Below, in pieces: positions 45,464-45,654 of a stretch of 64,000 nucleotides of DNA. Location of the stretch: NCBI GenBank assembly GCA_018648645.1, contig JABGQS010000014.1, positions 1-64,000 of the forward strand, given 5' to 3'. The position numbers were made by a program, and so were the translations under genes. This DNA is from Clostridia bacterium. Its GTDB lineage: Bacteria > Bacillota > Clostridia > Christensenellales > SZUA-584. Each line of letters starts with the position of its first letter. Positions within the stretch are counted from its first letter, which is position 1. The notes under the pieces are model-generated. The model had not been told where the DNA came from. It did not search any database and worked only from the letters and a program-made list of their open reading frames with translations.

Positions 45464-45488
45464 AAAACGTGCCACTGGCACGTTTTTT
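45464..45488. terminator. hairpin terminator containing the shared 17-bp palindrome
   Basis: ACGTGCCACTGGCACGT (45467-45483) flanked by AAA and TTTTTT, 120 bp after the HEPN gene. The identical 17-bp core lies at 848-864. Confidence 0.75.
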
Positions 45489-45508
45489 ATGCTACGCATA
45501 CCGTTCGC

Positions 45509-45524
45509 TTCGACTCCACCTCCC
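45509..45524. repeat. mirrored copy of the tRNA-Tyr 3' end
   Basis: TTCGACTCCACCTCCC is the exact inverse of 45577-45592 inside tRNA-Tyr, placed symmetrically across the tRNA terminator. The same layout exists for tRNA-Arg at 879-960. Confidence 0.9.
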
Positions 45525-45533
45525 GGAATCAGA

Positions 45534-45569
45534 AACGAAAAAAGCACCCCTTGGGGTGCTTTTCGTTTC
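45534..45569 (-). terminator. tRNA operon terminator
   Basis: AAACGAAAAAAGCACCCC and GGGTGCTTTTCGTTT around a short loop, right after the CCA of tRNA-Tyr. Confidence 0.85.
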
Positions 45570-45654
45570 TGGTGGAGGGAGGTGGAGTCGAACCACCGAA
45601 GTCGTAGACGGCAGATTTACAGTCTGCTCCCTTTGGCCACTCGGGAATCCCTCC
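45570..45654 (-). tRNA. tRNA-Tyr (GTA)
   Basis: 85 nt, class II with a long variable arm. Acceptor GGAGGGA/TCCCTCC, anticodon GTA in ACTGTAAAT, discriminator A and encoded CCA. Last gene of the tRNA operon. Confidence 0.96.

Follow-up and report, generated by a model that had tools for sequence, protein, structure and literature searches.

Mirrored-tail units behind clostridial tRNA genes share the anatomy of the E. coli RtT repeats

The 3' ends of tRNA genes are a main landing site of mobile DNA, and normally one enzyme serves one tRNA. In integrons, the attC site is an imperfect palindrome that functions in folded, single-stranded form. The RtT repeats of Escherichia coli have been known since 1991, and their role is not settled. 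In E. coli K-12 (L282), three 178-bp tandem RtT units lie behind tRNA-Tyr at the tyrT-tyrV locus (RF00391), and 4680 of 5426 E. coli genomes carry an RtT repeat at one to nine places each. According to later papers (PMC2965389 and PMC4986893), Bosl and Kersten (1991) reported RtT as an RNA product. BIMEs are short, gene-less, interspersed palindromes able to terminate transcription (PMC2965389). Here, we describe gene-less units of about 100 to 200 bp that duplicate and mirror the tails of clostridial tRNA genes, beginning with two loci in a 64,000-nt stretch of DNA from a gut-type bacterium, the whole of which we call the window.

The tRNA-Tyr locus and the tandem array at tRNA-Arg

At tRNA-Tyr, features are given in tRNA sense, which is the minus strand. 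The host gene, tRNA-Tyr(GTA), occupies 45570-45654 (minus strand; ARAGORN, Rfam tRNA), and the target is its 3' tail (T), 45577-45592 and on to the CCA at 45570. The original prediction, made from the letters of the window, held that TTCGACTCCACCTCCC at 45509-45524 is the inverse of 45577-45592, and both letters and coordinates are right: this mirror (M; minus strand) is an exact 16-nt reverse complement of the tail. Tail and mirror are separated by a segment, L (45525-45569, minus strand), that consists of a terminator-like hairpin, GAAAAGCACCCCAAGGGGTGCTTTTT, and a short linker; the terminator expected between the mirrored arms is found here as a bidirectional terminator-like hairpin at 45539-45564. 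Beyond M lies a leftover element core, GCGAACGGTATGC...TTTTTAGTGAGGTGGC (45452-45508, minus strand), in which 49 of 54 bases match the core that follows tRNA-Gln on contig C8, and the mirrors of these two copies are unrelated. The core includes a hairpin, P2 (ACGTGCCACTGGCACGT, 45467-45483, no strand assigned), which is terminator-like on both strands because runs of A and T flank it. Along the minus strand, the order is thus tail TTCGACTCCACCTCCCTCCACCA, terminator-like hairpin, mirror GGGAGGTGGAGTCGAA and GCGAACGGTATGCGTAGCATAAAAAACGTGCCAGTGGCACGTTTTTAGTGAGGTGGC, with the end near 45452. The Tyr copy is a truncated, degraded member of the family that has lost its half running from GTGATAG to the distal tail, and so it is probably inactive. 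A 651-aa ORF at window positions 43392-45347, with no Pfam match, converges on the element.

A complete copy, in tRNA sense, comprises the tail T, a terminator or linker L, the mirror M, AAC, P2, GGCGTGATAG, P3, GCGGAG and a second, direct T, which begins at T-loop base C56. tRNA-Arg(ACG) (937-1013; ARAGORN) hosts a tandem array of such units, all on the minus strand. In the first, the terminator-like hairpin of segment L (897-936) is followed by an exact 18-nt mirror of the tRNA-Arg tail (879-896), and the stretch at 799-888 holds the 5' arm of stem P1, P2 (ACGTGCCAGTGGCACGT), GGCGTGATAG, P3, GCGGAG and the direct tail copy. We scored the units with two covariance models, R1 and R2, the latter built from clostridial units only. 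Unit 1 (799-888) reaches 70.6 bits with R1 and 69.5 bits with R2, unit 2 (649-742) 87.3 and 68.7 bits, unit 3 (502-595) 86.7 and 69.3 bits, and unit 4 (355-448) 84.5 and 67.4 bits. The original prediction missed both these four tandem units (355-888) and the direct tail copy at the distal edge of the core, a copy that is gone at Tyr. Its claim of one hairpin common to both loci is borne out (ACGTGCCACTGGCACGT at 45467-45483 and 848-864, chance 0.01 per window); the spacing of 25 bp beyond the mirror, given for both, applies at Tyr but is about 15 bp at Arg.

The same sequences recur through the source genome. ACGTGCCACTGGCACGT is found at two further places, on C3 (behind tRNA-Gly) and C20, with degenerate copies elsewhere, and AGCACCCC occurs 8 times in the window against 0.8 expected by chance, 7 of the 8 inside these elements. 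When the 250 nt following each of 41 tRNA genes were scanned, an inverted tail match of 10 to 20 nt was present at seven (Arg-ACG, Gln-CTG, Gly-CCC, Leu-CAA, Leu-CAG, Leu-TAA and Tyr-GTA), and the longest match at the other 34 was 7 nt or less; an exact 16-nt match within 250 nt has an expectation of about 1e-6. Copies are in tandem at Arg (four), Gly (two) and each Leu (two).

Two other arrangements were seen in this genome. At positions 1-1620 of L052 (contig C39), two units in tandem and a degenerate third one are followed by an unrelated ORF and then by a lone half unit GGCGAGCCGGCGTGATAGGGGCTTAGCCTCGGCGAAAGTCCC; the ORF is possibly cargo between two element halves. A second type of tRNA-tail unit, with no mirror, occurs at tRNA-Arg-CCG (L031) and tRNA-Met-CAT (L029), where 23-nt direct tail copies lie at +156/+159 and the element ends are CTCCCGTC and TTCGAATCC.

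Distribution and fit of the mirror to its tRNA

In the order, 32 of 297 genomes carry units detected by model R1, and they are patchy in wider samples (10 of 391 genomes for the class, 10 of 398 for the phylum). Units in other Bacillota families also occur in single-contig genomes, which rules out misassembly as a general explanation. A DNA pattern search of named genomes returned 92 stretches, mostly from uncultured Clostridia, with Peptococcaceae, Desulfosporosinus, Dichloromethanomonas and Gracilibacter among the other carriers; a minority, in high-GC genomes and without a tRNA, look like chance. A viral collection yielded no copy except one GC-rich match without a tRNA, which we judge to be chance. 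Rfam returned only tRNAs in the window and, for nine loci searched down to E=1, otherwise chance matches that stayed under the gathering scores. The literature searched, which covered few subscription journals, yielded no description of the clostridial units. They form a widespread element family that was not found in Rfam or in that literature.

Directly behind a tRNA or tmRNA gene stand 69 units, representing 27 kinds of host. Counted outward from GAAC, the complementarity in these 69 extends on average over 11.1 nt, compared with 5.8 nt after permutation of mirrors and tails (highest value in 1000 permutations, 6.9). A tmRNA is the host in three cases (L073, L074 and L296). In another genome (L072), two identical 153-bp units stand in tandem at tRNA-Thr. 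The proposal that the mirrored tail is a repeated element and not a coincidence is therefore strongly backed, by seven tRNA loci in the source genome and by 69 tRNA- or tmRNA-linked copies whose mirrors fit their own hosts, and it withstood a check of related genomes for an ordinary insertion without mirrored arms.

Other repeats were seen at tRNA ends. Behind tRNA-Leu-TAA in G259 (L103), another tandem tail-duplicating unit has a different core (GGTGGGACTTTTCAAGTCCTTCCTGTCGG...), which suggests several families of tail-duplicating elements. In G163 (L071, L253 and L256), several different tRNA genes are followed after the CCA by a common block, an interspersed repeat that starts at about CRTCGCGATGG and ends in a terminator.

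Helices, strand chemistry and origin of the units

M pairs with the distal T to form stem P1, so that M, core and T fold as a three-way junction. In an alignment of 13 units, 81.8% of cells are paired, compared with 65.5% after shuffling, and 60 cells are changed on both sides where 20.7 are expected. Covariation in P2 and P3 is independent of the mirror; that in P1 is in part the mirror itself. Nearly all of 114 distinct copies have the ends GAAC and GGAGC followed by the tail. Mirrors are exact close to the core and decay outward. Perfect palindromes whose loops are short and mostly of three bases are seen; in 119 distinct P2/P3 hairpins, 68 loops have three bases and tandem G.A pairs recur.

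G.U pairs are retained in RNA helices, and their scarcity here bears on the form in which the units act. Among isolated mismatches in the 119 hairpins, we counted 2 G.T, 5 A.C and 37 G.G, the last stemming largely from related copies, beside 965 Watson-Crick pairs. As a control, 250 tRNA acceptor stems from the retrieved loci gave 98 G.T, 2 A.C and 1649 Watson-Crick pairs, so that G.T is about 30 times rarer in the units (Fisher p 1e-17). Because the helix pairs covary and yet G.T is almost absent, the structure looks constrained as DNA and not as RNA. Which strand folds was sought in G.T against A.C, and 2 versus 5 isolated mismatches are too few to tell.

This control rejects a functional structured RNA with G-U-tolerant helices. 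More broadly, we consider it doubtful that the units are a structured RNA processed from tRNA transcripts in the manner of RtT, for example a regulator or a decoy for tRNA-processing enzymes. Such an RNA would suit units that sit behind tRNA genes, and an RNA product has been reported for E. coli RtT. In some Bacillota (L222, L160 and L271), no terminator lies between tRNA and unit, from which co-transcription of the two would follow. However, in the window mirror and core are shut off on both sides by terminator-like hairpins, and mirrors track the host tRNA and not one regulatory target. The idea put forward with the original prediction, that a transcribed mirrored tail competes for tRNA-processing enzymes, fares poorly for the same reasons: at both Tyr and Arg the mirrored tail is enclosed by two such hairpins, which makes competition unlikely in the window, the helices are nearly free of G.T, unlike RNA helices at the same loci, and what is conserved is mirror, core and distal tail together rather than an antisense tRNA tail.

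The reading we favor, with about even confidence, is a non-autonomous mobile DNA element that uses a folded strand at tRNA T-arms. Its insertion site would be the T-arm of both tRNA and tmRNA genes, and it would probably act as a folded single DNA strand or a cruciform. Since the flanks are direct tail copies from C56, the tRNA would stay intact and each insertion or tandem duplication would add one tail. Pairing of M with the distal tail in P1 may recreate the T-arm sequence as a recombination site. At each new tRNA, either template switching within the hairpin or selection for pairing may re-fit the mirror. Mobility is suggested by the patchy distribution, by tandem copies that are identical and by the range of tRNA kinds. 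It counts against this reading that, to our knowledge, no known transposase explains the fitting of an internal mirror to a new tRNA. A bolder version, which we put forward only tentatively, is a new class of mobile DNA that recognizes the T-arm shared by tRNA and tmRNA genes, integrates at C56 as a folded single strand and has its own arm rewritten to mirror the host, with RtT as surviving relatives. An element with a re-fitted mirror at 27 tRNA and tmRNA kinds would require a targeting rule so far undescribed.

Comparisons of related genomes provide a candidate insertion site. In genus g144, tRNA-Ser-TGA and tRNA-Ser-GCT are separated by 33 nt in G348, which has no unit there, and by 139 nt in G643, where a unit and a duplicated tail are present; because these are two different species, the pair may represent an empty and a filled site and is not proof of a single event. 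Strain-level pairs gave no single clean insertion. In genus g87, flanks were too diverged for an empty-site comparison, and units at Arg-CCG show tail and terminator duplicated. The units behind Ser-GGA and Arg-TCG in G544 share L (54 of 60 positions) from the first base past the CCA, terminator included, which argues that L travels with the element. At L274 in G643, a unit preceded by a chimeric tRNA-Leu fragment has the donor mirror GGACTTG but the distal tail (CAACTCC...) of another tRNA; either this is a misassembly or the sequence was rearranged through the C56 junction.

The direct repeats at L091 and L288 span tail plus terminator, as could result from duplication of the block or from a further unit that has been truncated. 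They weigh against mobility insofar as tandem duplication fits them as well as insertion does, and they bring in an explanation without dedicated transposition that is unlikely, if less so than the RNA: units would arise, and spread locally, through accidents of replication at tRNA genes. The nascent strand would fold back at the terminator hairpin and copy the tRNA tail in inverse to give M, tail-to-tail recombination would build tandem arrays, and cores would spread by gene conversion or gene transfer. Besides tail and terminator duplicated as a block, this would account for mirrors that decay away from the core and for perfect palindromes whose loops are short and mostly of three bases. It does not readily explain how one fixed core, with helices that covary and junction letters that stay the same, comes to stand behind 27 tRNA and tmRNA kinds in distant genomes, or why cores at different tRNAs within one genome are nearly identical.

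Several results count against the mobile reading: unit loci hold no encoded enzyme or recurrent neighbor protein beyond conserved core genes, the viral collection gave only the one chance-like match, and Y1 transposases are scarcer in genomes with units. The source genome has generic tyrosine recombinases (PF00589), and a generic PF00589 search gave no specific mobilizer candidate among them. Scars of attachment sites of tyrosine-recombinase elements (a prophage or integrative element), left as tandem remnants after gene loss, are improbable, a shade more so than a structured RNA. Direct tRNA-tail copies are typical of such sites, and one of the recombinases lies in the window at 58600-59718. 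tRNA-targeting tyrosine integrases usually serve one tRNA, however, and a single core here serves 27 kinds, tmRNA included; there are no genes between the repeats, the viral collection was negative, and neither the mirror nor the covarying hairpins are accounted for. The recombinase at 58600-59718 (PF00589) is about 1.4 kb from tRNA-Trp (61112-61187).

Movement of REP/BIME-like palindromes by a Y1 HUH (RAYT) transposase is very unlikely. The units are palindromic, gene-less repeats, and rtT-like elements are reported in BIMEs (PMC2965389). Y1 proteins, however, are found in 4 of 32 genomes with units versus 105 of 265 others (p 0.003), and the source genome, which has the most units, has no Y1_Tnp match; we therefore reject a RAYT-type mobilizer, and this origin is largely refuted.

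Comparison with known systems

Among described systems, tRNA-targeting integrative elements are alike in that direct copies of the tRNA 3' tail flank the insert and the tRNA is left intact. The clostridial units differ in carrying no genes or integrase between the repeats, serving many tRNA kinds and containing an inverted tail copy. REP and BIME repeats are also short, gene-less, interspersed palindromes, but the clostridial family is strictly confined to tRNA 3' ends, has a target-specific mirror and tail duplication, and shows no association with Y1. The integron attC site likewise is a gene-less palindrome with a variable loop region, whereas the clostridial ends are GAAC and GGAGC, lack RYYYAAC...GTTRRRY and target the tRNA T-loop.

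RtT (RF00391) shares the anatomy of the clostridial units. In both, units stand in tandem immediately after a tRNA gene and take in its 3' tail. The E. coli unit has a spacer, a 10-nt tail mirror (GGGGAAGGAT), hairpins with 3-base loops (GCA and GAA), GCTGAG and a direct tail (ATCCTTCCCCCACCACCA). The top three matches of R2 there are the three RtT units in exact register (13.0, 12.6 and 10.5 bits; next 5.4), with a roughly calibrated E of about 0.02 for 1.3 kb, which is below safe significance. Conversely, the RF00391 model, which scores its E. coli control at 134 to 138 bits and has a gathering score of 45 bits, gave no match at E up to 1 in nine loci of the source genome. The clostridial family is thus built like RtT and falls outside RF00391; homology of the two is suggested by the R2 score, and we do not claim RtT as a proven homologue. 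They differ in that RtT has been described as an RNA, whereas the clostridial helices are almost without G.T pairs. If the T-arm reading were true, RtT would be the footprint of a mobile element, either in place of a regulatory RNA or before becoming one, and the RtT repeats of E. coli would gain relatives and a testable explanation at the level of DNA.
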